From Bacteroidaceae bacterium (GTDB taxonomy: Bacteria; Bacteroidota; Bacteroidia; Bacteroidales; Bacteroidaceae), in contig JAFYYH010000018.1 of assembly GCA_017557635.1 (NCBI GenBank), positions 58,907 through 122,906 on the forward strand: a DNA stretch of 64,000 nt. The letters run 5' to 3'. Position numbers and translations under genes: made by a program. Under the pieces are notes generated by a model. It had not been told where the DNA came from. It made no database searches and was given only the letters and a program-made list of their open reading frames with translations. Shown in pieces: positions 3,070 through 59,036 of this stretch. The stretch's first letter is position 1. Every line of letters starts with the position of its first letter.

Positions 3070-3171
3070 AAAGTAACAAAAGGGACGGTTCTGTTTTTCA
3101 CCTTTTGAGGGATTCAAGATAGCTTAGGATTTCCGGAAGGTGACAAACAGAACCGTCCCCTTTGTCACTTT
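3070..3171. repeat. Paired REP (BIME-like) inverted repeat, copy 1
   Basis: Two 35-base arms, 3070-3104 and 3137-3171, are inverted copies with 3 mismatches. Both contain the core GGGACGGTTCTGTTT. The right arm is itself a small hairpin, with an 8-base stem GTGACAAA/TTTGTCAC and a GGGGAC-type head, the usual shape of REP sequences moved by REP-associated tyrosine transposases. A diverged second pair with the same core lies at 57436-57530. Both sit between convergent gene ends. The left arm supplies the stop codon of the HAD gene and the right arm codes for about 11 of its residues. No transposase gene is present in the window. Confidence 0.85.
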
Positions 3172-3769
3172 GCAGGCTTAGCAAAATTGTGTGACAGCCT
3201 ATTGAATTGGCTGGGACGATGTCTTTTTCGTAGTTATCACCTATCATTACGGTTTCCTGTGGCTCAAGACCGAGAGCTTGAACTCCAAGGCGGAAGATTT
3301 CGGGATCGGGTTTGCGGACTCCTACTACGCTGGACTCTACTACTTCCTTAAATAAATGATCCAAACCAAACTCCGCTAACACAGTGTGCATGTTGCCGTA
3401 GAAGTTTGTTACCAGGACCATGGGTAGTTTTATCCTCTCAAGGACGGGCTTGGAGACTGTGGAAATATGCTTGACTACTTTATTGTAGCAGGTGTCAAGA
3501 ATTGTGTCCTGAGCGGTTATAGCTATCCCTTTGGACTGCAGATATTCAGTCTGAAGGCCTATCTTGGTCTGCAGGGTTTTGCAGAATGTGTCTGTGGGTT
3601 TGATTATGGGGTTACGGCCAAGGGTTCGCTCGGTGTTGACGTAGGCATCCCAAAGGAGGTCTTTGGGGACATCGGCCACCATGGCATAGGCGTCACTGAA
3701 TGCATTGAACCAGTGGATACCGTCGGAGTCAATAGTTCCGCCAAAGTCTATGAGTATACCCTTAATCAT
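3098..3769 (-). CDS. HAD-superfamily phosphatase with REP-derived C-terminal insert
   Basis: A 223-residue haloacid dehalogenase-like hydrolase. Motif I is DFGGTID near residue 8: the nucleophile Asp is present but the second Asp is Gly, as in YihX-type sugar-phosphate phosphatases. Motif II is VLVTN near residue 118, and motif IV is IGDNYEKD, preceded by RKPD. It is the last gene of the rlmN operon and overlaps the flippase-like gene by 8 bases. Its role may be to dephosphorylate a product of the preceding lipid-type enzymes (inference from position). Residues about 201-211 (SDKGDGSVCHL) and the stop codon are encoded by the two arms of a REP pair. The family-like ending PEILSYLESL lies between them, so the gene seems to have tolerated an in-frame insertion. 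Confidence 0.85.
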   Translation of the reverse strand: MIKGILIDFGGTIDSDGIHWFNAFSDAYAMVADVPKDLLWDAYVNTERTLGRNPIIKPTDTFCKTLQTKIGLQTEYLQSKGIAITAQDTILDTCYNKVVKHISTVSKPVLERIKLPMVLVTNFYGNMHTVLAEFGLDHLFKEVVESSVVGVRKPDPEIFRLGVQALGLEPQETVMIGDNYEKDIVPANSIGCHTILLSLQSDKGDGSVCHLPEILSYLESLKR

Positions 3770-4772
3770 GCTTGCGTCCCGTTTTCATCATTATTATGCC
3801 TATGATGGTCCAGACTATCTGACGCAGACGGGCCACCAGTGCGGTGTAGAGTCCGTATGCGCCGGGTACCTGAACGCCGCCGGCAGCAAGTGCCATTCCG
3901 CCTTCAAATCCGCCCACCTGCATGGGTGAGAAGAATATCAGGTTACTGAACAGCGATGAGAATGCCATTACCAGTATGCTGTCCCAGAAGCTGAATCCCG
4001 GCACCAGCATACCTATCAGAAGCCAGTACTCAAGACAGGATACCACGCGGGCTGCGTACTCTAAGAACAGTGACCACCAGAACGGTGCACGGCGACGGGT
4101 GTGCAGGAACGCAATCTGGCTGTCCACCTCTTCAAGTTCCGCGCGGTGCTTCTCCAGATAACCGGCTGCCCACTTCTTAACCAGAGGGATACGGCTCAGA
4201 AGGCCGAACACCTTTACCACAAATCCGTGGCGGTAACCCAGCGAAAAGAACCAGAGCACCAGCACAAATACCACTGTCATTACGCCAAGCATAATGCACA
4301 TCCACGCATTCAGCACATATCCCGAGCCAACACAGAAGTGGAGCACCACATAGAGCACCACAGCCGAGAGCCAGAAGCAGAAGTGCGAGCAGATATGCAT
4401 CATGGAGTAAAGGATTACGGCCGATGACGCCTTCTTGCCGCCCACATATCCCGAGAGTTCAAGTATGCGATAAGGCTCACCGCCCATCAGTCCCAAAGGA
4501 GTGACGTAGTTGAGTGCATAACCCGATACGGTCAGTTGGAACACCTTGCCAAAGGGTACGCGGTTATGGGTTCCGTCATTGATGATAAGCCCGAACGAAC
4601 AGGTGTTCATCAGGTAGATGAAACCCCAAAGAACAACTATCACTGGGAACCATATTCCTGCATCAGAGAGCACCTCTTTGACACGGTTCCAGTCCGCATC
4701 AAAGGTGACGAGCATCAGCACCACGGCTGCTACTCCAAAGATAAAGAATATGTCCCGCCAGCGTTTCTTCAT
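3762..4772 (-). CDS. Flippase-like integral membrane protein (LPG_synthase_TM family)
   Basis: A 336-residue multispanning protein with about 8 hydrophobic segments. It carries the two hallmarks of the LPG_synthase_TM / UPF0104 family, TPLGLMGGEPYR near residue 91 and MQVGGFEGG near residue 290. This family includes the lipid-flipping half of MprF and many bacterial and archaeal relatives placed next to lipid or glycan biosynthesis genes. The start overlaps the stop of the upstream CDP-alcohol phosphotransferase by 4 bases (ATGA), and the 3' end overlaps the HAD gene by 8, so translation is probably coupled. I infer that it moves the lipid product of this operon across the inner membrane. No enzymatic GNAT-like MprF domain is fused to it. 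Confidence 0.85.
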   Translation of the reverse strand: MKKRWRDIFFIFGVAAVVLMLVTFDADWNRVKEVLSDAGIWFPVIVVLWGFIYLMNTCSFGLIINDGTHNRVPFGKVFQLTVSGYALNYVTPLGLMGGEPYRILELSGYVGGKKASSAVILYSMMHICSHFCFWLSAVVLYVVLHFCVGSGYVLNAWMCIMLGVMTVVFVLVLWFFSLGYRHGFVVKVFGLLSRIPLVKKWAAGYLEKHRAELEEVDSQIAFLHTRRRAPFWWSLFLEYAARVVSCLEYWLLIGMLVPGFSFWDSILVMAFSSLFSNLIFFSPMQVGGFEGGMALAAGGVQVPGAYGLYTALVARLRQIVWTIIGIIMMKTGRKHD

Positions 4773-5698
4773 ATCTTGTCCGTCATATCACGGCATACAC
4801 GCTCATGTCCGGCTTTCATGCCAATGAATATGATGTTCATTACGATTATCTCAAACACAAAATATATCCACGGCATACCCACAAGAAGTGTTATGTAGAG
4901 CACGATTGCGCGGGTGTTGAAGGTGGATATGTTGGTCCACTTGAGCAGATGGTAGGTGCGGCTGCAAAACTCCTTTCCAAGTTCCGCGGGAATTTCATTG
5001 CCGTACTTCTCACGTACTGCAGCACGGAACTTCTGGAACCGCGGAGTCATGCCCTCCTGAGTGCGAGTGTAACCCTGATAGAAGAACAGCCATATCTTCC
5101 AGAACCAGCGCTCACGCCAAGGGGTGTTGCGCTGCTCATCGGCCAGTTCACGGCTGTCATTGAGTTCTGAATGGTCACCGTGGAACAGAAGGTATATGTT
5201 GCGGTAATAATCAGCCAGTCCTGCCTGGCGTGAGTGGAACACCATGCTTACCAGCATAATTATCCAAATCCATATGCTCCAGAATCGGCCGTTGCCAAAA
5301 GGAATAAGTTCAAAAGTGAGTCTCCATGCTATGAACACGTAGATGAAGAAGAACCAGACATCACCTGCAAAACCGTCAAGCAGACGGCCCCAGAGGGTCT
5401 TCTTGCCGGTCATTCGGGCCAGCTGGCCATCGGCACTGTCAAGGAAGTTGGCTACCATAAGCATGCCTATTCCCAGCAAGGTCCATCCCATCGTAGGGTG
5501 CCACCAGCAGAATCCGGCAAACGCACCCAGAAAAATGGATATTATGGTGATTACGTTTGGATGTATCCCGAAATAATCGAATGCCTTGGCAAACACCAAT
5601 CCGATGGGACGTGTAAACCAGATATCCAGCCACTCCTCTGTATCCTTTGACTTGAATGTAGCCTCAACCGCTCTTTTCTTCTTCTCTGTCATTTCCAC
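4769..5698 (-). CDS. CDP-alcohol phosphatidyltransferase family protein
   Basis: A 309-residue membrane enzyme with a CDP-alcohol phosphotransferase signature at about residues 87-113: DSADG, then QLAR, eight residues, G and LLD. Such enzymes displace CMP from a CDP-linked lipid or polyol to form a phosphodiester. The canonical last Asp (three residues after LLD) is Gly here, with the Asp one position later (GFAGD), a variant that may define a subfamily. Several transmembrane helices surround the motif, and an unusual soluble stretch lies at about 170-235. It overlaps the ATP-grasp gene upstream by 10 bases and the flippase-like gene by 4. The neighbouring nucleotidyltransferase could supply its CDP- or NDP-activated substrate, but the actual lipid is unknown. 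Confidence 0.87.
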   Translation of the reverse strand: MEMTEKKKRAVEATFKSKDTEEWLDIWFTRPIGLVFAKAFDYFGIHPNVITIISIFLGAFAGFCWWHPTMGWTLLGIGMLMVANFLDSADGQLARMTGKKTLWGRLLDGFAGDVWFFFIYVFIAWRLTFELIPFGNGRFWSIWIWIIMLVSMVFHSRQAGLADYYRNIYLLFHGDHSELNDSRELADEQRNTPWRERWFWKIWLFFYQGYTRTQEGMTPRFQKFRAAVREKYGNEIPAELGKEFCSRTYHLLKWTNISTFNTRAIVLYITLLVGMPWIYFVFEIIVMNIIFIGMKAGHERVCRDMTDKI

Positions 5699-6507
5699 TT
5701 TTTCATTATCAGTTCGGCAATCTGCTCTGCCGCACCCACCGTGCAGGTACGGAAACTGGGCCAGTCATTGAAATCAATTATGGTGATATCACCCTCCTGA
5801 CCTACCACAGCGTCGCCGCCATATACATCAACTCCAAGTATTCCTGATGCACGGTCGGCCGCAGCCGTCAGCACATCCATATCAACGCATGCCGCATCGG
5901 GCATGTCATTATGCTCCTCCAGACCGAACTTGCCGTCCTTGACAGTAGCCGCATAACAATCCGTAAGGCCGATGCCCTTGACACCGTAAAACTTGACCAG
6001 CCAGCCTTTGACGTGATCCTGAAGTACACACTCATTTATACCACGCTCTGCAAAACCGCACATGGCGGCTTCCAGTTCCGCAGCGTTCTGAATGAACCGG
6101 ACGTCATCCTTTTGGACCGCATGGCTGTCGGGACGCTTTATCCAGCAGGGATAGAGGTTCCATCCGGCAGGTACGCCCGATGTCGGACAAATCATGCTCT
6201 CCGGAATAAGACCGCTCTCCTTAAGCAGTCTGGTCTGGGCAGCACGGGCGCAGTTCAGAACCGCCTGCACCGTATTTGTAACCGGCACTTTTACCTGACC
6301 GAGAATGTCCAGAGCCTCACGGCTTCTTGCCATATGGAATATGCCGCCGATACCGTCCGGTATGGCTGTAAGTTCCTGCTCGCTTATGCAGATTACCTCA
6401 TGACCGTGACGTTCCAGTTCCGCTGCTACTGCACGGAAAACTGCCGTATCGCCCGATACACGGTTAGGCGAATACAACTCAGCACGGCTTACTCCAAGGT
6501 ACTTCAT
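5689..6507 (-). CDS. ATP-grasp family protein (putative carboxylate-amine ligase)
   Basis: A 272-residue protein with an ATP-grasp layout. The pre-ATP-grasp domain covers about residues 1-90. An ATP-binding Lys lies in CWIKRPD. LVKFYGVKG and GVDVYGGD strands follow, and a metal-binding acidic end IIDFNDWPSF is near residue 245. The fold is of the RimK/GshB type, which forms amide bonds between a carboxylate and an amine using ATP. It overlaps the nucleotidyltransferase by 4 bases and the CDP-alcohol phosphotransferase by 10. The pairing suggests it adds an amino acid or similar group to the molecule being built by its neighbours, but no specific substrate can be named. I do not recognise an individual gene symbol. 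Confidence 0.72.
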   Translation of the reverse strand: MKYLGVSRAELYSPNRVSGDTAVFRAVAAELERHGHEVICISEQELTAIPDGIGGIFHMARSREALDILGQVKVPVTNTVQAVLNCARAAQTRLLKESGLIPESMICPTSGVPAGWNLYPCWIKRPDSHAVQKDDVRFIQNAAELEAAMCGFAERGINECVLQDHVKGWLVKFYGVKGIGLTDCYAATVKDGKFGLEEHNDMPDAACVDMDVLTAAADRASGILGVDVYGGDAVVGQEGDITIIDFNDWPSFRTCTVGAAEQIAELIMKKWK

Positions 6508-7184
6508 AGTTTTGCTATCTCCTGGGCACGGGCCACATCACTGACATGGTCAACATCGACCACCTGTCCCATATCGAATGCCTTCAACCGCATGCCTGCC
6601 TCCAGTAACTGACGCTGAAAATAACGCATCCTGGTCTGTCCGCTCTCAAGGCAGCTTTTCAACACATTAAGCGCATCGGCCTTCAAGGCATATATTCCGG
6701 CCGATACGAACCGGCAGTTATCCCGTGAGTCATGGAAGCCATTTATCATCATCTCCCCGTCCACATCGACATAGAGGGGCTTTTCATCATCTATCAGTGA
6801 TGTAACACCCATCAGACCGTCCAGTGAACTCCTGGAGAACTCATCCATCATAATGCGGAAACGGCTCTCGGAAAAGACGGTGTCGACAGTGGTCACGCAG
6901 AAACGGTCACCCTCCAAATAGGGTGCAAGTTCCATCATGCTGTGCATGGGTGTGGGAGTCTTCTTTACCACCAGATCGACCGGAAGCTTCTTCAGCAGAC
7001 TGACAGTCTCGGAATTCTCACCGTTTACAATCACGGCAATGCGCTCGGCCCCGCACCCGTTCATGATGCGGACAAGACGTTCTATCATGGGAACGCCGCA
7101 TATAGGCACCAACGGCTTGGGCTGACTGAATCCTTCGGATGCCAGACGACTGCCCTCACCTGCTGAAATGATGCCGAAACGCAT
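6504..7184 (-). CDS. Nucleotidyltransferase (MobA/GlmU-type sugar- or polyol-phosphate NTP transferase)
   Basis: A 226-residue single-domain protein with the NTP-transferase fold. The N-terminal nucleotide loop is AGEGSRL at about residues 8-14, followed by KPLVPICGVPM, which holds the conserved Lys. TTVDTVF near residue 100 is the usual metal-binding position. It would join a phosphorylated sugar, polyol or amino alcohol to an NTP. It begins 17 bases after pdxA and ends overlapping the ATP-grasp gene by 4 bases. Together with the CDP-alcohol phosphotransferase two genes on, it recalls the inositol-1-phosphate cytidylyltransferase plus phosphotransferase pairs of phosphodiester-lipid pathways, but the base and substrate preference is unknown. 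It lacks the left-handed beta-helix of GlmU. Confidence 0.82.
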   Translation of the reverse strand: MRFGIISAGEGSRLASEGFSQPKPLVPICGVPMIERLVRIMNGCGAERIAVIVNGENSETVSLLKKLPVDLVVKKTPTPMHSMMELAPYLEGDRFCVTTVDTVFSESRFRIMMDEFSRSSLDGLMGVTSLIDDEKPLYVDVDGEMMINGFHDSRDNCRFVSAGIYALKADALNVLKSCLESGQTRMRYFQRQLLEAGMRLKAFDMGQVVDVDHVSDVARAQEIAKL

Positions 7185-7201: not shown

Positions 7202-8293
7202 TTACTCCTTGCCTGCGTCCAGATGCTTGAGTTTGTCGCTGTCGTCGCGACGGTCAAAATAGAGTTTCTTGAGAGGATTGGCATGTATCTCCTCCTCATT
7301 CTGACGTGAGCGGAAGATGTCAATGGCGGCAAACACTGCCTGGCGCATCGACTCCTCGCTTGCCAGGCCCTGACCTGCTATGTCGTAAGCGGTACCGTGA
7401 TCCGGCGATGTGCGTACCACCGGCAGGCCTGCGGTAAAGTTCACGCCGCAGTCCATGTCAAGAGCCTTGAGCGGAATGAGTCCCTGGTCATGATACATGG
7501 CCAGCACGGCATCGAACTTGCGGTACTCACCGCTGCCAAAGAAACCGTCGGCTGAGAAGGGGCCGAAGCACTGGATCTTATCGGCCACAGCCTCATCGAT
7601 GGCGGGCTTGATGATCTCACTCTCCTCCTTGCCGATGAGTCCGTCATCGCTGGCATGGGGGTTGAGTGCAAGCACTGCTATGCGCGGAATCTCTATTCCG
7701 AAATCGGTCTTGAGTGAGCGGTTGAGTATTCTGAGTTTCTCCTTGATGAGATCCTTGTTGAGCAGTGAAGCAACCTTGGCTATAGGCTCATGAACGGTGG
7801 CAAGAGCCACTCTCATGGAGCTGTTCATGAGAATCATCAACGCCTTGTTACCCTCGCCCAGCTGAGCCTCGATGTACTCGGTATGTCCGGGGAAATGGAA
7901 TGCCTCCGAATGGATAGTCTTCTTGTTGATGGGTGCGGTCACCAGCACATCGATCTTACCCTCGCGATACTCCTTGACAGCACGTTCCAGAGCCTGGAAT
8001 GCAGCCTGTCCGCTCTCCTCGGTGGGCATGCCGAAATCAACCTTGACATCCTCCTGATTGCAGTTGACCACATTCAGACGGTCGGGCTGTGCATCGGCGG
8101 CACTGTCCACAACATTGAAATTGGTGGGGGAATCTATCGCCTTGCGATGATAAGTCATTACCTTGGGTGAGCCGTACACCACCGGTGTGCAGAACTCAAA
8201 CATGGTGGGGTCCTCAAATGTCTTGAGAATAACCTCGTATCCTATGCCGTTCACATCACCCTGGGTGATGCCTACAACTATCCTTTCACTCAT
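7202..8293 (-). CDS. pdxA: 4-hydroxythreonine-4-phosphate dehydrogenase PdxA
   Basis: PdxA oxidises 4-phosphohydroxy-L-threonine in the DXP-dependent pathway to pyridoxal phosphate. The 363-residue protein begins with VGITQGDVNGIGYEV and carries TAPINKK near residue 122, HTEY near residue 136, ALNPHA near 215 and the metal/substrate segment AMYHDQGLIPLK near 287. These are all family features, including three metal-site histidines. Its length is slightly above the usual 330. It lies 12 bases after the DUF4837 lipoprotein gene and 17 before the nucleotidyltransferase, so it is part of the long rlmN operon. Confidence 0.95.
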   Translation of the reverse strand: MSERIVVGITQGDVNGIGYEVILKTFEDPTMFEFCTPVVYGSPKVMTYHRKAIDSPTNFNVVDSAADAQPDRLNVVNCNQEDVKVDFGMPTEESGQAAFQALERAVKEYREGKIDVLVTAPINKKTIHSEAFHFPGHTEYIEAQLGEGNKALMILMNSSMRVALATVHEPIAKVASLLNKDLIKEKLRILNRSLKTDFGIEIPRIAVLALNPHASDDGLIGKEESEIIKPAIDEAVADKIQCFGPFSADGFFGSGEYRKFDAVLAMYHDQGLIPLKALDMDCGVNFTAGLPVVRTSPDHGTAYDIAGQGLASEESMRQAVFAAIDIFRSRQNEEEIHANPLKKLYFDRRDDSDKLKHLDAGKE

Positions 8294-8305: not shown

Positions 8306-9496
8306 TTAATTATCGGGGGTTATTATGATTTCATCCAGGTCGTAACTGAACTTCTCCAGGTCAAGCTCATCGGGCAGACGCAGTGTATAGAGTGCTGCCT
8401 CGAGTTTGCGGAGATAGTCACGTTTGGGATGATTCGGGAAATATACGAATGCCTCGGCTACCACAACGCGCTGATTCTTCTCGTCAACACGTGATACCGA
8501 TACGAACGGACCGCCCATGTCGTAGTCCTTGATGTTCCAGAGTCCGCGGACTACCTGTGCATAGTGTTTGTGGACAACCTCGTCCGATACCAGATTGAAT
8601 CCCTTTGTGGTCATCATGTACTTGCCCTCAGTGGGACCGGGGATATTGGCCTTCATGACAGAGTCACGCTTGCGTACGAAATATGCCTCGGTGAATGTAT
8701 TCACGTCGCGGTACGGATAGGAGTAAACCACGATGTTCAACTCCTGCTCCACCCTCTTTACGAACCTCTGGCAACGGGCCCACACGAAATGACGGCCGGT
8801 GATGACCTTGTTCAGCTCGACGGGAATCCACATGTCGGCACCGAATGTCTTCCTTATTGCTTCCTGCATATGAGGCTGATGGTCTTCCTTGAGAAGGTCT
8901 ATCTGACGGTTCATTTCCGCATGAGTGAAGAAGTCCAGGATCATGTCATGGTTATCGGTCAGGAAATCATTGAACTGAACCACGTCATGTGCCTGTATGG
9001 TGGCTACCAACTGGGGAGCTGCATAGACATCCCTCGAGTACTTGAACCTGGCTTTGGTGTAAAGTGACGGATCAATCTTTATCTGAATGATGTTACGGCA
9101 AAGGCGCAAGGTCTTGGAAAGGTCACCCTGATTGATTCTGATAACCTTGAAGCTGGGCTCTGACTGAGCCACGCCTGCAACATCATCTGTGAGGACGGCG
9201 TAGAGGGAATCAACCGCACCGGTCCTGAAGTCCTCGGCTCCGCCTACAAGCAGAATCTCATAGGGAGAACCTGCCGATGTGGGAGTGAACACCGATTTCT
9301 TTTTCTTCTTATTTGCTTTTTTCTTTGTGGTCTTACCCGATTTCGTGGTCTTAGCACTCTGAGAGGCAGTTTTCACCTCAGTCTGGCCTCCGTCCAGATC
9401 GTTTCCGGCCTTCTGAGCCCTACCGCCGCATGCAACGGTAACCATTACCGCCAGCAGCATCATGCAAACCTTAAGGATAAACTTTTTCATAATCAT
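8306..9496 (-). CDS. DUF4837 family lipoprotein
   Basis: A 396-residue predicted lipoprotein with lipobox TVACGG near residue 23. A low-complexity Thr/Lys-rich stretch follows at about residues 42-68, probably a flexible linker. The remainder resembles the DUF4837 family, which I know only from Bacteroidota and which has no assigned function. Two in-frame ATGs (9496 and 9490) are possible starts. It follows rlmN by 5 bases and precedes pdxA by 12, so it is probably co-expressed with them. Confidence 0.75.
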   Translation of the reverse strand: MIMKKFILKVCMMLLAVMVTVACGGRAQKAGNDLDGGQTEVKTASQSAKTTKSGKTTKKKANKKKKKSVFTPTSAGSPYEILLVGGAEDFRTGAVDSLYAVLTDDVAGVAQSEPSFKVIRINQGDLSKTLRLCRNIIQIKIDPSLYTKARFKYSRDVYAAPQLVATIQAHDVVQFNDFLTDNHDMILDFFTHAEMNRQIDLLKEDHQPHMQEAIRKTFGADMWIPVELNKVITGRHFVWARCQRFVKRVEQELNIVVYSYPYRDVNTFTEAYFVRKRDSVMKANIPGPTEGKYMMTTKGFNLVSDEVVHKHYAQVVRGLWNIKDYDMGGPFVSVSRVDEKNQRVVVAEAFVYFPNHPKRDYLRKLEAALYTLRLPDELDLEKFSYDLDEIIITPDN

Positions 9497-9501
9497 ATGT
9501 T

Positions 9502-10533
9502 TTAAGGATTAGGATGTTCATTTTTTGCCGTACTCAACATTCCGCAGGCTGCCCAGATGTCCTCGCCGCGTGATGCACGGATCGTTGCAAAGACTCCGTG
9601 TCCGGTAAGCCAGTCGCGGAACTCCGTCATCTTTTCCTCCGATACGGGGCGCAGCGGACTGTCAGGTATGGCATGAAAGCGAATCAGGTTAACCCTGCAA
9701 CTGAGACCGTTAAGGGTCTTGACCAGCTGACGGGCATCGTCAATGGAATCATTCACACCATCGAACATGGTGTACTCGAATGACAGACGGCGCTGGTGGC
9801 TGAAGTCATATCGGCGCAGGACCTCAAGCATCTCGGTCATTGAGAATGCCTTCTCGGCCGGGATGAGCTCGCGGCGTTTCTCCGGTGTGGGAGCATGCAG
9901 ACTGACTGCAATGTGACACTCGCAGCCTTCAATAAGCTGTTTGAGTTCACGACGCAGACCTACAGTCGAGATCGTGATACGCTTGGGGCTCCATCCGAAT
10001 CCCCAGGATGCAGTCATGATCTCCTGTACGGCAAGCACATTCTCCAGATTGTCAAGAGGCTCACCCATACCCATGAACACCACGTTGGTAAGGTTCTCCT
10101 TGCCGGGCAGTGAGAGTATCTGGTTAAGGATCTCACCTGCGGTCAGGCTGGCGGTATAGTGCTGGCGTCCTGTCATGCAGAACACGCAGCCCATCTTGCA
10201 GCCCACCTGGCTGGATATGCACAGGGTGGCACGGTCATCATCGGGAATGTAAACAGCCTCCACAAAATGACCGTTCTGTACGGGGAAGAGATACTTGACC
10301 GTACCGTCAGTAGACGCAGCCTTGTGAGACGGTCCGGCCAGACCCACCTCATAGCCCTCCTTGAGCTTAGCCCTTGCCTTGAGAGAGAGGTTGGTCATAC
10401 CGTCAATGGAATCGACCTGCTTCACATAGAGCCAGTCGGCTATCTGCTTGGCGGTAAAAAGAGGCATGCCGTTCTCCACAGCCACCTGCTGCAGCTGTGC
10501 CAACGTCATTCCAACCAGATTCTTCAGAGCCAT
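9502..10533 (-). CDS. rlmN: Dual-specificity 23S rRNA/tRNA adenine C2-methyltransferase RlmN
   Basis: RlmN is a radical-SAM enzyme that methylates A2503 of 23S rRNA and A37 of some tRNAs. The 343-residue protein has the 4Fe-4S motif CKMGCVFC (CX3CX2C) at about residues 111-118. It has the GMGEPLDN segment near 154, the SVGL and SLHAP motifs, and the methyl-carrying cysteine in AACGML near the C-terminus. It is the first gene of the leftward eight-gene operon, with a good TAnnTTTG promoter about 70 bases upstream of the ATG. Confidence 0.96.
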   Translation of the reverse strand: MALKNLVGMTLAQLQQVAVENGMPLFTAKQIADWLYVKQVDSIDGMTNLSLKARAKLKEGYEVGLAGPSHKAASTDGTVKYLFPVQNGHFVEAVYIPDDDRATLCISSQVGCKMGCVFCMTGRQHYTASLTAGEILNQILSLPGKENLTNVVFMGMGEPLDNLENVLAVQEIMTASWGFGWSPKRITISTVGLRRELKQLIEGCECHIAVSLHAPTPEKRRELIPAEKAFSMTEMLEVLRRYDFSHQRRLSFEYTMFDGVNDSIDDARQLVKTLNGLSCRVNLIRFHAIPDSPLRPVSEEKMTEFRDWLTGHGVFATIRASRGEDIWAACGMLSTAKNEHPNP

Positions 10534-16746: not shown

Positions 16747-18180
16747 ATGAATGAGAAGTTGAAAGAACTGTTCAGGCAGTATGCCGGATGTGAGGCTGAG
16801 AGCGTTACACGGCTTACTGCGGCGGGATCCAACCGGGTTTACTACCGTTTTGCTTTCAATGGCAAGACCGTAGTCGGTGTAGAGGGGACTAATGCCGATG
16901 AGAACGCGGCGTTCCTGAGCATCGGACAGGATCTTGCATCTAAGGGACTGCCGGTTCCGGGCATTCTGGCTGTGGCCGATGACCGTATGTGTTATCTGCT
17001 CCAGGACCTGGGCGATGTATCACTCTTTGACACACTCAAAAGCGCACGTGAAACCGGCGAATACTCTGCTGAGCAGACCCAGCTTCTTGAAAAGGTGATA
17101 CGCCTGCTGCCGCAGTTACAGTTCAAGGGCGGACACGGAATGGATTTCACGGTTTGTTTTCCCTGCGAGTCTTTTGACCGCCGCAGCATTTTCTGGGACC
17201 TGAACTATTTCAAATACAACTTCCTCAAGGCTGTAGGTCTGGAATTCCACGAGGCCCGTCTGGAGGATGACTTTGAGCGTTTTGCCACGCTGCTGCTCAA
17301 GGATGCACCTTACGATACATTCATGTACCGCGATTTCCAGGCACGCAACGTGATGGTTAAGGACGGAAATCCCTGGTTCATTGATTTCCAGGGTGGCCGA
17401 CGCGGTCCCATTGAGTATGACCTGGCATCGTTCCTGTGGCAGGCCCGGGCCGCTTATCCGGACAATCTCAAGCAGCACCTTATTGATGTTTATCTGGAGG
17501 CTCTTGCTCCTTTCCGCAAGGTAAGCGCCAAGGAGTTCCTTGCAAGCCTGCACAACATCGTGCTGTTCCGCACGCTCCAGGTTCTGGGCGCATACGGATT
17601 CCGCGGTTACTTTGAGCGCAAGCCTCATTTTGTTCAGAGCATTCCGGCTGCAATAGACAACCTCCGTGACCTGCTCAAACAGAATATCGAGGGATGCCCC
17701 TACCTGACACAGTTGTTGCGTGACATAACCAAGCTGCCGCAGTTCAACCCGCAGCCCGCACCTGAGAACGTAAAGCTCACCGTACGCGTAATGAGTTTTT
17801 CATACCGCAAGGGCCTGCCCCACGACGACAGCGGCAACGGCGGCGGATTCATATTTGACTGCCGCGGCATGCACAACCCGGGCAAGTATGACTGCTACAA
17901 GAAGATAACCGGGGCCGATGCTCCCGTCATTGAGTTCCTTGAGGAGCGTGGTGAAGTACAGAAGTTCCTTGAACATGCATACGGAATGGTTGATCCCTCG
18001 GTAGACCGTTACATAGAGCGCGGCTTTGCCAACCTGATGGTATCATTCGGATGCACCGGAGGCCAGCACCGCTCACTCTACTGTGCCAACCATATGGCAG
18101 AGCACCTGAAACTCAAATACGGTGACCGCATCAACATCCTGCTTGAACACCGTGAACAAGGCATCAGCAAACAGCTATGA
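16747..18180 (+). CDS. AmgK-like amino-sugar kinase fused to a RapZ C-terminal domain
   Basis: A 477-residue two-domain protein. Residues about 1-330 are an aminoglycoside-phosphotransferase-type kinase like AmgK, which phosphorylates MurNAc or GlcNAc at the anomeric position in peptidoglycan recycling. The catalytic loop is YRDFQARNV near residue 196 and the metal-binding motif is IDFQGG. Residues about 340-477 match the C-terminal domain of RapZ, including the hallmark GCTGGQHRS near residue 436. In E. coli that domain senses glucosamine-6-phosphate. The Walker-type kinase half of RapZ is absent. The stop overlaps murU by 4 bases. The fusion suggests that kinase activity or expression is tied to amino-sugar-phosphate levels (inference). 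Confidence 0.88.
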   Translation: MNEKLKELFRQYAGCEAESVTRLTAAGSNRVYYRFAFNGKTVVGVEGTNADENAAFLSIGQDLASKGLPVPGILAVADDRMCYLLQDLGDVSLFDTLKSARETGEYSAEQTQLLEKVIRLLPQLQFKGGHGMDFTVCFPCESFDRRSIFWDLNYFKYNFLKAVGLEFHEARLEDDFERFATLLLKDAPYDTFMYRDFQARNVMVKDGNPWFIDFQGGRRGPIEYDLASFLWQARAAYPDNLKQHLIDVYLEALAPFRKVSAKEFLASLHNIVLFRTLQVLGAYGFRGYFERKPHFVQSIPAAIDNLRDLLKQNIEGCPYLTQLLRDITKLPQFNPQPAPENVKLTVRVMSFSYRKGLPHDDSGNGGGFIFDCRGMHNPGKYDCYKKITGADAPVIEFLEERGEVQKFLEHAYGMVDPSVDRYIERGFANLMVSFGCTGGQHRSLYCANHMAEHLKLKYGDRINILLEHREQGISKQL

Positions 18181-18929
18181 ACGCACTGATTCTTGCCGCC
18201 GGACTGGGCACACGCCTTGGGGAGTTCACCGCTGACCGCCCCAAAGCACTTGTTGAGGTTCAGGGCCGCACCATGCTGGAGCACCAGTTGCGTCACCTGG
18301 CATCGGCCGGATTTGACCGTTTTGTAATCAATATCCACCACTTTGCAGGAAAGGTTGAACAGTACTTAAAAGACAATAACAACTTTGGTCTTGACATAAC
18401 CCTGTCCGACGAGAGCAATCTGTTGCTGGACACCGGCGGCGGAATCCGCCAGGCCATGCACCTGCTTAAGGATGACTCACCCCTGCTGGTCCACAACGTA
18501 GACATATTCTCAAACACAGACCTTAATAGTCTTTACCGGACCCATATAAAAAGCGGTGCCGATGCAACCCTGCTGACCGCCCGCCGCAGCACTTCCCGAT
18601 ACCTTTATTTTAATAATAGGGGCGCACTTTGCGGATGGAGCAATGAAAAGACGGGCGAGGTCCGTTCACCCTTATCCGACTTTGACAAGACAAAGTACAC
18701 TCCCTATGCATTCCAGGGAATACACGTAATATCAAAGAGTGTGCTGCCTCTGCTGGATGCCATACCGGAGCAGAGATTCGGCATAACCGATTTCTATGTA
18801 AGCAATGCGGGTAACCTGAATCTGCAGATGGTGGAGTGTGATCCGTCACAGTGGGTCGATGCCGGCAAACCCGAAACGCTTGACACTGCCGCACAGATTG
18901 TAAAGAGTATCTATGAACATACTGCTTGA
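18177..18929 (+). CDS. murU: MurU-like N-acetylmuramate-1-phosphate uridylyltransferase
   Basis: A 250-residue nucleotidyltransferase with LILAAGLGTRL at residues 4-14, RPKALVEVQG, the GGGI segment near residue 84 and HNVDIFSN near residue 107. In the AmgK-MurU pathway of Pseudomonas and several Bacteroidota, MurU converts MurNAc-1-phosphate to UDP-MurNAc, bypassing de novo (fosfomycin-sensitive) synthesis. The 4-base overlap with the AmgK-type kinase supports that role over a generic sugar-phosphate nucleotidyltransferase. Its end overlaps the AlkD-like gene by 17 bases. Confidence 0.82.
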   Translation: MNALILAAGLGTRLGEFTADRPKALVEVQGRTMLEHQLRHLASAGFDRFVINIHHFAGKVEQYLKDNNNFGLDITLSDESNLLLDTGGGIRQAMHLLKDDSPLLVHNVDIFSNTDLNSLYRTHIKSGADATLLTARRSTSRYLYFNNRGALCGWSNEKTGEVRSPLSDFDKTKYTPYAFQGIHVISKSVLPLLDAIPEQRFGITDFYVSNAGNLNLQMVECDPSQWVDAGKPETLDTAAQIVKSIYEHTA

Positions 18930-56659: not shown

Positions 56660-57463
56660 ATGCACACGAGAGAAGAACAGATGCAGGCATTCGGCCGCCT
56701 GCTGGACATAATGGATGAACTCAGGGAGAAGTGTCCTTGGGACAGCGTTCAGACCAATGACTCACTGCGCCAGAATACCATCGAGGAGGTTTATGAGCTT
56801 TGCGATGCCATCATGAAGGACAACAAGGCCGATATCTGCAAGGAGTTGGGCGATGTTTTGCTGCATGTAGTGTTCTACGCAAAGATAGGCAGCGAGACCG
56901 GCGATTACGATATCAAGGACGTTTGTGACAAGCTTTGCGACAAGCTTATCTACCGCCATCCCCACATTTACGGCACCACCAACGTAAACGGTGAGGAGCA
57001 GGTACTGCAGAACTGGGAACAGCTCAAGCTCAAGGAGAAAGGCGGCAACAAACGCGTGCTTGCCGGTGTGCCCGATGCCCTGCCCTCAACCATCAAGGCT
57101 TTCCGCATCCAGGAGAAAGCCGCTCATGTGGGCTTTGACTGGGATACACCCCAGCAGGCTTTCGAAAAAATCCGCGAAGAATATGCAGAACTTGCACATG
57201 AGATTGATGCAAACGATAAGGAAAAAGCTGAGCAGGAACTTGGCGATCTGCTGTTTGCCATCATCAATGTGGCACGCCTTTACAAGATCCATCCCGACGA
57301 TGCTCTTGAGCGCACCAACAAGAAATTCATACGCCGCTTCAACTATGTAGAAGAGGCAGCCATCAACCAAGGCAAGCAACTCAAGGATATGACCCTTGAG
57401 GAGATGGATGCGCTTTGGAATGAAGCCAAAGCTAAAGAGACCAAAAGGGACGGTTCTGTTTGA
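56660..57463 (+). CDS. mazG: Nucleoside triphosphate pyrophosphohydrolase MazG
   Basis: The ATG at 56660 gives 267 residues, the normal length for a two-domain MazG. The first domain has CPWDSVQTNDSLRQNTIEEVYEL near residues 24-46 (in two stretches) and the ELGDVLLHVVFYAKIG motif. The second has EEYAELAHEI and ELGDLLFAIINVARL. The enzyme hydrolyses NTPs to NMPs and helps clear aberrant nucleotides. The last 8 residues (ETKRDGSV region) and the stop codon are encoded by the left arm of a REP pair, so the native C-terminus seems to have been replaced. Confidence 0.95.
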   Translation: MHTREEQMQAFGRLLDIMDELREKCPWDSVQTNDSLRQNTIEEVYELCDAIMKDNKADICKELGDVLLHVVFYAKIGSETGDYDIKDVCDKLCDKLIYRHPHIYGTTNVNGEEQVLQNWEQLKLKEKGGNKRVLAGVPDALPSTIKAFRIQEKAAHVGFDWDTPQQAFEKIREEYAELAHEIDANDKEKAEQELGDLLFAIINVARLYKIHPDDALERTNKKFIRRFNYVEEAAINQGKQLKDMTLEEMDALWNEAKAKETKRDGSV

Positions 57464-57530
57464 CACGTGCTTAAATTTGCTCTAATAGCAGCTTTCCATG
57501 CGCCAAACAAAACCGTCCCCTTTGATCTCT
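57436..57530. repeat. Paired REP (BIME-like) inverted repeat, copy 2
   Basis: Arms 57436-57469 and 57497-57530 are 34-base inverted copies with 6 mismatches, all transitions, sharing GGGACGGTT and TGTTT with the pair at 3070-3171. It sits between the convergent mazG and GH30 genes, and its left arm provides the mazG stop codon. The outer stem differs from that of copy 1 (AGAGA/TCTCT rather than the GTGAC type), so the two copies have diverged outside the core. Confidence 0.8.
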
Positions 57531-57533
57531 TGG

Positions 57534-59036
57534 CTACTTTGTGCGTATTTGGAAGGTTGTAACCGAGTTCGGTATTAGGGTTACCTCCAACTTTGAATCT
57601 TTGATCTTTCCCAGATCTGTTTCTGACCAGTGTTCTCCGTCTTGGAATTGACCACTGGTTCTTATTTGTTTTACGTTTCCTTTAAGTTTGAACTCACTCA
57701 TATCTATAGTCATGTCCTTTTCCTGATTTGTAGTATTGGTGAAAACTATAGTGAGTTGTTTGTGCTTGCTATCTATTGCGGCAAGGACTTTGGTGCCGGA
57801 GCGGCGGTCGGTGGGGCAGAGAATCAGAGTGGAGCCGGGACGGATGTAGCGGCTGAACTGGCCCAGTGCATAGTACTTCTGGGTGAGCAGGATCTCACCG
57901 GTATCATGATTGGCGCAGGCGGTTCCCCAGTAGCCTCCGGCAGTACGCAACGGGCCTCCGTCACGACGGCCCTGATAGCCCTCCTTACTGATGTGGGTGT
58001 CTATTACCTGCCAGAGTACCCAGGCCGATGGCTCCAACGCTTCAATGTCAGTAATTATCTTTTCTGCGAGCCACAGTCCGGCAGCCATCTCTCCGGCGTT
58101 CTGGCCGGCGGTTCCGTTGCCGTCCACCTCACTCATCCAGAGGTTTATCTTCTCGTCCTTGGCCAGCTGGCCCATCTCGCGGATGCTGTTGGTGCCGTAG
58201 GTATGTACGCTGATGCGGTTAATGGCAGCGCGGGCATCGGGAGTAAGAGTCTTTATCTCCTCAATCTGTTTACCGGGATTGGTCTCGTCGCTGGTTGTCA
58301 GGACTATGTCGTTAAGACCGTAGCGTCCAAGTGCCTCCTTAGTCAGTACCAGCAGTTTGGACTGAGCCTCACCGGCATCGATATGACAGCCCTCCTGCTT
58401 GTAGTTCATGGCGGGCCAATAGTTGGTGTTGGGCTCGTTCATGGGCGATACGCTGCGGACCTTAAGTTTCATCTCACGGGTCATGTAGTTTGCCACATGA
58501 GCCATATACTCGGCAAAGTCATCATACTCATCGTCCTTGATGTTGTTCTCCTCGGCCTTGAAGTTACCGGTTGAGCAGCCGCTGTTAGTCATGAAGTATG
58601 GCGGTGAGTTGCTGAATATCTCCAGATAGGCATCCTGACCGGCGGCATTCATTGCGGCTTTCACCACATTCAGCTGGCGGGCATCGGCCGTATAGTCATA
58701 CTTGCGCTCTCCGTCGGTGTCTATGTACATCCAACCGGGAACGTCGCTGTCGGTGCGGGTTATGTGATGGTGTGTGGGATCATCGCCTCCGCCTACGTTG
58801 TAGCGCATAATATTTAGGCCAAGACCTTTATCGGCATCAAAGAAAAGGTCGGCCGATTTTGACGTAAGCGTTTCGTTGTAACCGATGCGGTTAGCCCACC
58901 AGCAGAGACTGGTGCCCCATCCTTCCCATCGGCCCCCGTTGGTCTGGATGGCGTTGTCCATTGACACTTTTATTACGGTCTCAGCGTGGCAAACCATTGA
59001 GGCGGCCAGCAACAGTACAAAGGCGAATCTTCTCAT
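57534..59036 (-). CDS. GH30-family glycoside hydrolase (endo-beta-1,6-galactanase-like)
   Basis: A 500-residue secreted enzyme with a signal peptide ending at CHAE. A (beta/alpha)8 catalytic domain is followed by a C-terminal beta-sandwich (from about 400). The acid/base Glu is in SPMNEP near residue 199 and the nucleophile Glu in MSEVDG near 307. The N-terminal GWGTSLCWWANR and NIMRYNVGGGDDP segments resemble GH30 subfamily 5, which cleaves beta-1,6-galactan side chains of arabinogalactan. No SusC/D pair or other glycosidase is adjacent, so it is an orphan. Its 3' end lies 4 bases from REP pair 2. Confidence 0.85.
   Translation of the reverse strand: MRRFAFVLLLAASMVCHAETVIKVSMDNAIQTNGGRWEGWGTSLCWWANRIGYNETLTSKSADLFFDADKGLGLNIMRYNVGGGDDPTHHHITRTDSDVPGWMYIDTDGERKYDYTADARQLNVVKAAMNAAGQDAYLEIFSNSPPYFMTNSGCSTGNFKAEENNIKDDEYDDFAEYMAHVANYMTREMKLKVRSVSPMNEPNTNYWPAMNYKQEGCHIDAGEAQSKLLVLTKEALGRYGLNDIVLTTSDETNPGKQIEEIKTLTPDARAAINRISVHTYGTNSIREMGQLAKDEKINLWMSEVDGNGTAGQNAGEMAAGLWLAEKIITDIEALEPSAWVLWQVIDTHISKEGYQGRRDGGPLRTAGGYWGTACANHDTGEILLTQKYYALGQFSRYIRPGSTLILCPTDRRSGTKVLAAIDSKHKQLTIVFTNTTNQEKDMTIDMSEFKLKGNVKQIRTSGQFQDGEHWSETDLGKIKDSKLEVTLIPNSVTTFQIRTK

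Follow-up and report, generated by a model that had tools for sequence, protein, structure and literature searches.

Two described routes to inositol lipids lie close to the system considered here, a five-gene cassette in a 64,000-nucleotide stretch of a Bacteroidaceae bacterium genome (GCA_017557635.1, contig JAFYYH010000018.1, positions 58,907 to 122,906; hereafter the window). In Bacteroides thetaiotaomicron, BT_1522-1526 encode a phosphatidylinositol-phosphate (PIP) synthase route, in which the inositol lipid is fed by inositol-phosphate synthase (MIPS) and made through a phosphorylated intermediate and a phosphatase. For Bacteroides vulgatus and Prevotella, an alternative and unproven cluster has been put forward (Heaver 2022; main text of PMC9246714), where a nucleotidyltransferase, a CDP-alcohol phosphotransferase and a HAD protein are encoded together, with MIPS and a lysyl-phosphatidylglycerol (PG)-synthase-like protein near them. 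Exceptions to the MIPS linkage, such as Prevotella copri, are allowed for.

The window cassette appears to consist of the families of this alternative cluster with MIPS relocated. The same three families lie together in the window, whereas MIPS is not in the vicinity and is unlinked in this genome. The locus numbers BVU_RS13095, BVU_RS13105 and BVU_RS13115 leave one gene between each pair, as in the cassette, a correspondence drawn from numbering, gene order and families (PMC9246714). The words ATP-grasp, grasp, RimK and ligase are absent from the main text of PMC9246714. A more distant parallel is CpgD of Caulobacter, which makes ceramide diphosphoglycerate and is, in the part of PMC12275187 available to us, likewise a cytidylyltransferase that feeds a ceramide head group and has inositol-1-phosphate cytidylyltransferase (IPCT) as top structural match. 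Its substrate is instead a phosphoglycerate, and that part of the paper describes no cassette of this make-up.

We find that an ATP-grasp protein, GRASP, is a constant member of the cassette, and we suspect that it may act as an inositol-phosphate kinase. The cassette occupies positions 3098-7184 of the minus strand as five overlapping open reading frames (ORFs), referred to here by short names:

6504-7184, minus strand: NTP, a MobA-like or sugar-phosphate nucleotidyltransferase (Pfam NTP_transf_3, 1.1e-12)
5689-6507, minus strand: GRASP, a predicted divergent ATP-grasp enzyme, with K172-x-Y174 at 5986-5994 and D245-x-N247 at 5767-5775
4769-5698, minus strand: CDPOH, a CDP-alcohol phosphotransferase (GTG start at 5698, ATG at 5692; Pfam PF01066, 3e-11)
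3762-4772, minus strand: LPG, an LPG_synthase_TM membrane protein (Pfam PF03706, 1.4e-20)
3098-3769, minus strand: HAD, a HAD-IA-type hydrolase with motif I D8-F-G-G-T (Pfam, 7e-17)

The coordinates were confirmed, and the overlaps of 4, 10, 4 and 8 bases that an earlier note on this DNA had given were re-measured and are correct. The 10-base overlap of GRASP and CDPOH depends on the GTG start of CDPOH; the in-frame ATG two codons on would give a 4-base ATGA overlap. Family calls for four of the five genes also hold, with NTP, CDPOH, LPG and HAD all above the Pfam cut-off.

Gene content and order of the cassette in other genomes

The cassette is beyond chance, because the five families stand in the order NTP-GRASP-CDPOH-LPG-HAD in 25 of 29 same-genus loci (the best-scoring places of the search). 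The same order is found on 8 of 11 contigs of close kin, the other three being cut by contig ends. Across 295 genomes sampled from the order, GRASP occurs in 37, belonging to 19 families (a thirty-eighth match, in G146 at E 5e-4, was dropped). Of 296 genomes sampled from the phylum, 12 have it at strong E-values, two further matches being marginal, and genomes of named species gave 35 distinct loci. NTP, CDPOH and HAD lie beside GRASP at the order level in 32 of 36 loci, among the distant contigs in 9 of 24 and in the wider phylum in all 11, while LPG is often missing, with all five genes in 15 of the 36 order-level loci. Neighbours were assigned to families by profile annotation; single-linkage clustering was set aside, as it merged cassette families through fusions. 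Eighteen of the 19 families have NTP-GRASP-CDPOH-(LPG)-HAD in one locus, and in the remaining one (G272) the cassette is split over two contigs. The earlier note had staked its proposal on co-occurrence of the five families beyond close relatives, and this is what we see, both among these families and in the wider phylum.

All 92 loci that have NTP, CDPOH and HAD also carry GRASP, although many of them were retrieved by way of GRASP itself. A fairer test starts from the phosphotransferase. The CDPOH search found matches in 115 genomes. Those with E no higher than about 1e-49, 44 in all, were taken as cassette-type, and the 71 weaker ones were dropped as other CDP-OH proteins; 36 of the 44 have GRASP, and in seven of the other eight (G075 was left out of the inspection) NTP and HAD are not beside CDPOH. 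Conversely, cassette-type CDPOH is found in 36 of the 37 GRASP genomes of the order. Three loci are without GRASP: the same-genus locus L069, on a contig that begins within CDPOH, and L143 and L153, which have it at another place in the genome (L142, L152). One 4.4-kb contig of a 61%-complete genome (L080) reads CDPOH-LPG-HAD-MIPS, with NTP and GRASP not in view. This constancy contradicts the idea that the ATP-grasp enzyme is an addition that makes the product new.

GRASP also shares open frames with its neighbours: NTP-GRASP in L077 and L155, NTP-GRASP-CDPOH in L154, GRASP-CDPOH in L063 and GRASP-HAD in L029 and the near-identical L033 and L035. LPG and HAD share one in L137. One open frame means here that no stop codon lies between two domains, and a fused protein is not implied. 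At L154:7437-9890 the three domains run through about 820 codons in a single frame and might form a three-enzyme fusion.

In a distant lineage of the phylum, the core is accompanied in seven loci (L181-L184, L186, L187, L189) by a class-III aminotransferase and an IolG-like (inositol-2-dehydrogenase-like) dehydrogenase. MlaE, MlaF and MlaD join the core there (MlaE in 8 loci), and GRASP is in tandem in four of the seven loci. A Binataceae contig carries NTP-GRASP-aminotransferase. These clusters may make an amino-inositol (aminocyclitol) lipid, which would leave room for a ligase.

Active-site residues of the cassette proteins

Taken alone, the window GRASP matches no NCBIfam model, and no Pfam family at E 0.01. 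At family level, NCBIfam MptN matches 24 of 33 members (best 3.6e-9) and rimK_fam 27 of 33 at E up to 1 (best 1.4e-7). In a PDB profile search, all eight matches with E below 0.04 are ATP-grasp enzymes, including 7drm, LysX and three ITPK proteins. On these two kinds of profile match we class GRASP as a divergent ATP-grasp protein.

Among 108 unique GRASP sequences, K124, G168, K172 and Y174 are invariant, and D245 and N247 are kept in 106 and 107, respectively. The ITPKs compared carry K and D at the places of K172 and D245, and hhalign sets K172 on K199 of human ITPK1 and D245-x-N247 on the human D-x-N. The ligases compared (three LysX proteins and 7drm) have R and E at these places, and this RimK/LysX-type pair is not present in the 108 sequences. 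GRASP shares with the ITPK kinases the ATP-grasp superfamily (hhalign 95%), the K and D-x-N residues and the proposed substrate class. Overall likeness pulls the other way, as GRASP is slightly nearer LysX, RimK and MptN than ITPK (hhalign 97.0% vs 95.1%; PDB 5e-6 vs 4e-3), and Pfam ITPK (PF05770) matches just 1 of 33 members, at E 0.13. Being below the Pfam cut-off, GRASP was ruled out as a plain member of the ITPK family. Family likeness alone does not settle whether the predicted function is that of a kinase or a ligase. We lean tentatively, and short of even chances, toward a kinase, given the K and D-x-N residues, the tie to MIPS, the frames shared with a nucleotidyltransferase or phosphatase and the separate PfkB kinase described below. 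That GRASP is neither kinase nor ligase is a possibility we take seriously if with somewhat less conviction, and a ligase is rather unlikely. Ligation of an amino acid, as first suggested for this protein, is thus possible, but the near-invariant residues point rather to a kinase.

CDPOH scores 44.4 bits against PF01066 (cut-off 22), matches an archaetidylinositol-phosphate synthase model at 5.7e-12, below its cut-off, and has AF2299 as its PDB match. The signature D1xxD2G1xxAR..G2xxxD3xxxD4 of such enzymes has been described as absolutely conserved, with D4 the likely catalytic base, and changing D4 to N nearly abolishes PIP synthase activity (PMC4634129). The window protein reads D87..D90-G91..A94-R95...G104...D108 and then has G112 at the expected D4 (5360-5440). 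Throughout the family D1, D2 and D3 are kept, and the D4 place holds Gly in 110 of 111 sequences and Ser in one (LDGxxG[D/N]); Asp stands there in 17 of 17 PIP synthases (PIPS) and in 4 of 4 neighbouring CDP-OH paralogues. The count was made over 115 sequences, of which seven outside the pattern were read individually and all have G at D3+4; about 19 of the 111 come from loci with no NTP and HAD in view. Unlike the GRASP set, the CDPOH motif counts were not restricted to unique sequences. Some members have N at the displaced place, and either the catalytic base has shifted by one residue or the enzyme uses a different chemistry.

In a tree of proteins from the sampled genomes, with no characterised reference included, CDPOH falls outside 10 PIPS rows and PIPS L220, and outside six other CDP-OH proteins of six genomes, which we take to be PssA-like. 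One row (OTH_L221) duplicates, in shortened form, a cassette protein that the tree already contained, and L229, which did not fit the pattern used, was omitted. Support for the deep fork is weak (64/69), and at that support CDPOH was rejected as a member of PIPS or the other CDP-OH group. In L156, L158, L191 and L193, CDPOH occurs with rlmN and pdxA, perhaps as a remnant or in a different use of the enzyme. A second CDPOH-LPG pair at L086:5359-8951, whose CDPOH has the same displaced D4 motif, is followed by two related acyltransferase-like proteins of about 280 residues, with NTP, GRASP and HAD not in view.

NTP matches PDB 4jd0 at 1.7e-7, and two other sugar-nucleotide enzymes (6jq8 and 5xhw) score slightly better. 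According to the part of PMC12275187 available to us, 4jd0 is the IPCT of Thermotoga maritima. R13 and K23 of NTP align with the R and K of 4jd0 that are the catalytic N-terminal-loop residues of IPCT, and we propose that NTP is a CTP:inositol-phosphate cytidylyltransferase. LPG, with 336 residues, is the membrane domain only, the C-terminal lysyl-PG synthase domain of MprF being absent by Pfam and NCBIfam, and from its family we propose a lipid flippase. HAD we propose to be a phosphatase; a pattern search found D[FY]G[GA]T in 93 of its 99 family members. HAD-IA proteins are soluble phosphatases, not PAP2/AUR1-type transferases.

Inositol supply and the lipid acceptor

MIPS is encoded in the window genome on another contig (G000:C19:17465-17803), beside arg genes. 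Its absence from the genome is thereby refuted, and the remark that an inositol-phosphate synthase is lacking is true of the cassette alone. This locus (L076) was also considered as a PIPS cluster and rejected, as Pfam shows arg genes. MIPS is found in 31 of 37 genomes of the window genus. In 27 of the 36 order-level loci it is in the same locus as the cassette, usually at one end. Among the 295 genomes of the order, 35 of 37 with GRASP have MIPS, vs 15 of 258 without GRASP, and in 29 of the 35 genomes with both the two lie within 12 kb of each other.

PIPS and PgpA were searched for in five genomes of the window genus (G000, G017, G030, G001 and G027, one of them 100% complete) and neither was found, which leaves the cassette as the sole route observed in them; in this, and in the separate branch of CDPOH, the locus differs from the B. 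thetaiotaomicron system. In 10 of the 24 distant contig loci, the cassette is interleaved with PgpA, GtrA, PIPS and PAP2 (MIPS is in view in 4 of these), and in Muribaculaceae-type loci these four genes lie between GRASP and CDPOH. The two routes are thus not simply alternatives. GRASP adjoins GtrA-PIPS-PAP2 genes in L020, L023, L025, L032 and L125, in genomes without a cassette NTP. The L015 record, titled 'Staphylococcus sp.', has the gene order of Muribaculaceae-type Bacteroidales and is probably from a mislabelled assembly.

A PfkB-family kinase lies directly after HAD in L180 (G524) and L143 (G272), both in genomes where MIPS was not found, and we read it as an inositol kinase replacing MIPS. 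With PfkB in the place of MIPS, inositol phosphate looks like the input of the cassette, and GRASP does not look like its entry kinase; the idea of GRASP as an entry kinase for free inositol is weakened by these loci. The head group made by the cassette is very probably inositol.

As to the acceptor, three loci, L180, L079 and L149, encode serine palmitoyltransferase (SPT) no more than about 6 kb from the cassette (736, 681 and 666 bits; NCBIfam cut-off 640); they represent two families, L079 and L149 being of one. Near the cassette of L180, one strand carries the genes for SPT, an unassigned 373-residue protein and an NAD-dependent epimerase, presumably as ceramide synthesis genes, SPT alone being named by profile. 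An SPT-like protein in L137 (356 vs 640 bits) and a 115-residue match at the edge of L156 were not counted. In the part of PMC10056535 available to us, B. vulgatus makes ceramide phosphoinositol (Cer-PI) and diacyl-phosphatidylinositol (diacyl-PI) was not detected, while B. thetaiotaomicron and B. ovatus make both. The B. vulgatus result favours direct transfer to ceramide over the phosphatidylinositol-diacylglycerol (PI-DAG) intermediate of Heaver 2022. PMC11334938 makes no mention of inositol. We consider ceramide the probable acceptor, with less assurance than for the head group, and the product is most likely an inositol-phosphate lipid, inositol phosphoceramide (PI-DHC). Another CDP-alcohol phosphotransferase, with the canonical D4, is paired with a nucleotidyltransferase near the cassette in L079 (5376-7008), L147 and L149; in L079 and L149, where SPT is near, the pair perhaps serves a second sphingolipid head group.

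Proposed pathway, its rivals and the surroundings of the cassette

Our best explanation, to which we give an even chance, is that the cassette makes inositol phosphoceramide by a CDP-inositol route in which GRASP is a second kinase. Each reaction is predicted from sequence. MIPS, acting in trans in the window genome, would supply inositol 3-phosphate (Ins3P), to which GRASP, as an ITPK-like ATP-grasp kinase, would add a second phosphate, perhaps at position 1. NTP would use CTP to activate the phosphate added by GRASP, and CDPOH would transfer phosphoinositol (phosphate) to the 1-OH of dihydroceramide; with the new 1-phosphate, NTP and CDPOH could produce a head group linked through position 1. 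HAD would take off the remaining 3-phosphate, and LPG would flip the lipid outward. In the accounts available to us, Ins3P is a substrate of ITPK1 in plants and, for the human enzyme, in vitro (PMC7618535, PMC12077091). Position 1 is a guess, because Arabidopsis ITPK1 is described there as phosphorylating Ins3P at position 4 first and adding the 1-phosphate last. The shared frames and this reaction order pull the odds in opposite directions and leave them unchanged.

Should GRASP instead be an amino-acid or carboxylate ligase that decorates the inositol head group, with NTP, CDPOH and HAD making plain PI-DHC, its nearness to RimK, LysX and MptN, its presence with a PIP-synthase cluster without NTP, CDPOH and HAD, and the aminotransferase and IolG-like dehydrogenase of the distant lineage would all fit. 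We regard this as unlikely, since the ligase-type R and E are absent, constancy in NTP-CDPOH-HAD loci would be unusual for an optional decoration, and plain Cer-PI is reported for B. vulgatus in the part of PMC10056535 available to us. In the model published, as unconfirmed, in the main text of PMC9246714, NTP would make CDP-inositol from inositol phosphate, CDPOH would join it to diacylglycerol as PI-DAG and HAD would convert this to PI-DHC, and a CDPOH-HAD fusion is reported there for Prevotella veroralis. GRASP would be an accessory with no role, despite its constancy and the open frames that it has in common with NTP, CDPOH or HAD. The family of HAD, as noted above, does not suggest a transferase. 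With diacyl-PI not detected in B. vulgatus, in the same part of PMC10056535, we find this model highly unlikely.

GRASP could also be a kinase of another sort, salvaging free inositol or, with HAD, relocating the phosphate of position 3 to position 1 ahead of activation. Its kinase-like residues, the GRASP-HAD shared frames and the full cassettes in the MIPS-less G288, G524 and G027 agree with this, and such a step would serve PIP-synthase genomes too. The presence of MIPS in nearly all GRASP genomes of the order and of PfkB in the MIPS place in L180 and L143, although the genome has GRASP, make it quite unlikely. A soluble product like di-inositol phosphate, as made by the IPCT/DIPP synthase of hyperthermophiles and here dephosphorylated by HAD, would fit the weak, below-cut-off matches that the bifunctional IPCT/DIPPS model gives with NTP (1.8e-8) and CDPOH (4.4e-5). 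It seems very improbable beside a flippase-family gene in the cassette, ceramide or Mla lipid-transport genes nearby elsewhere and the Cer-PI of B. vulgatus (PMC10056535, in part).

Several further findings weigh against the inositol phosphoceramide pathway with GRASP as second kinase. The co-occurrence of GRASP and MIPS has a P of 4e-31 that ignores ancestry. MIPS was not found in four cassette genomes that are 93-100% complete (G272, G288, G027 and G524), nor in the genomes of L016 and L020, whose completeness is unknown; at E 1e-15 PfkB matched no other locus, and none was in the fetched stretch of G288 and G027. GRASP stands with PIPS-type genes but no cassette NTP in G165, L020, L023, L025 and L032 (two of these have weak NTP matches, at E 9e-5 and 9.5e-4); in these genomes a kinase feeding NTP would have nothing to do. 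In the genomes of L019 and L021, which have GRASP, searches for NTP, PIPS, PgpA and MIPS found none. CDPOH occurs without NTP, GRASP and HAD in view in several loci, including the four with pdxA named above, and may thus have another partner or donor. The tie to SPT comes from L180, L079 and L149, in genomes other than that of the window, and with Gly at HAD motif I and a displaced D4 in CDPOH, catalysis by both is a prediction. We think it rather doubtful that everything holds jointly, i.e., an obligate bacterial ATP-grasp inositol-phosphate kinase, a direct CDP-inositol(phosphate)-to-ceramide route, a working D4-less CDPOH and an amino-inositol lipid with Mla in the distant lineage. A lipid head-group pathway related to Bacteroidota inositol-lipid loci, as the earlier note had it, is supported as a reading, while its new product is unsupported.

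The cassette is the tail of a same-strand run of eight genes that looks co-transcribed, in which rlmN, DUF4837 and pdxA precede NTP with gaps of 5, 12 and 17 bases. Four features adjoin or overlap it:

9502-10533, minus strand: rlmN, the first gene of the run (Pfam and NCBIfam)
8306-9496, minus strand: gene for a DUF4837 protein (Pfam)
7202-8293, minus strand: pdxA (Pfam and NCBIfam), 17 bases upstream of NTP; pdxA adjoins the cassette in many other families
3078-3164, no strand: hairpin-forming inverted repeat (-49.6 kcal/mol, z -8.4), overlapping the 3' end of the HAD ORF

The repeat, with GGGACGGTTCTGTTT arms (4 matches in the window vs 0.1 expected), has a second copy at 57447-57519 (site 57430-57535) and is likely a dispersed repeat. 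The last HAD residues come from a repeat copy, so the C-terminus of HAD differs from its relatives. Elsewhere in the window (16747-18929), a 477-residue ORF is followed by a nucleotidyltransferase-like ORF with a weak NTP-profile match, a pair that we take to resemble a sugar kinase/MurU-type pair.

What is new relative to the described systems is the constant GRASP (92 of 92 loci with NTP, CDPOH and HAD), a CDPOH that lacks D4 in 111 of 111 sequences and a PfkB kinase in two of four MIPS-less genomes. The main text of PMC9246714 describes effects of gut Bacteroidota inositol lipids on fitness and on resistance to antimicrobial peptides, and an effect of inositol on capsule expression. The inositol-lipid route of B. 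vulgatus and Prevotella is unproven, and GRASP, the shared frames, the absent D4 and the apparent replacement of MIPS by PfkB are concrete points from which to approach it. If the proposed pathway is true, ITPK-like inositol-phosphate kinases would be at work in bacteria.

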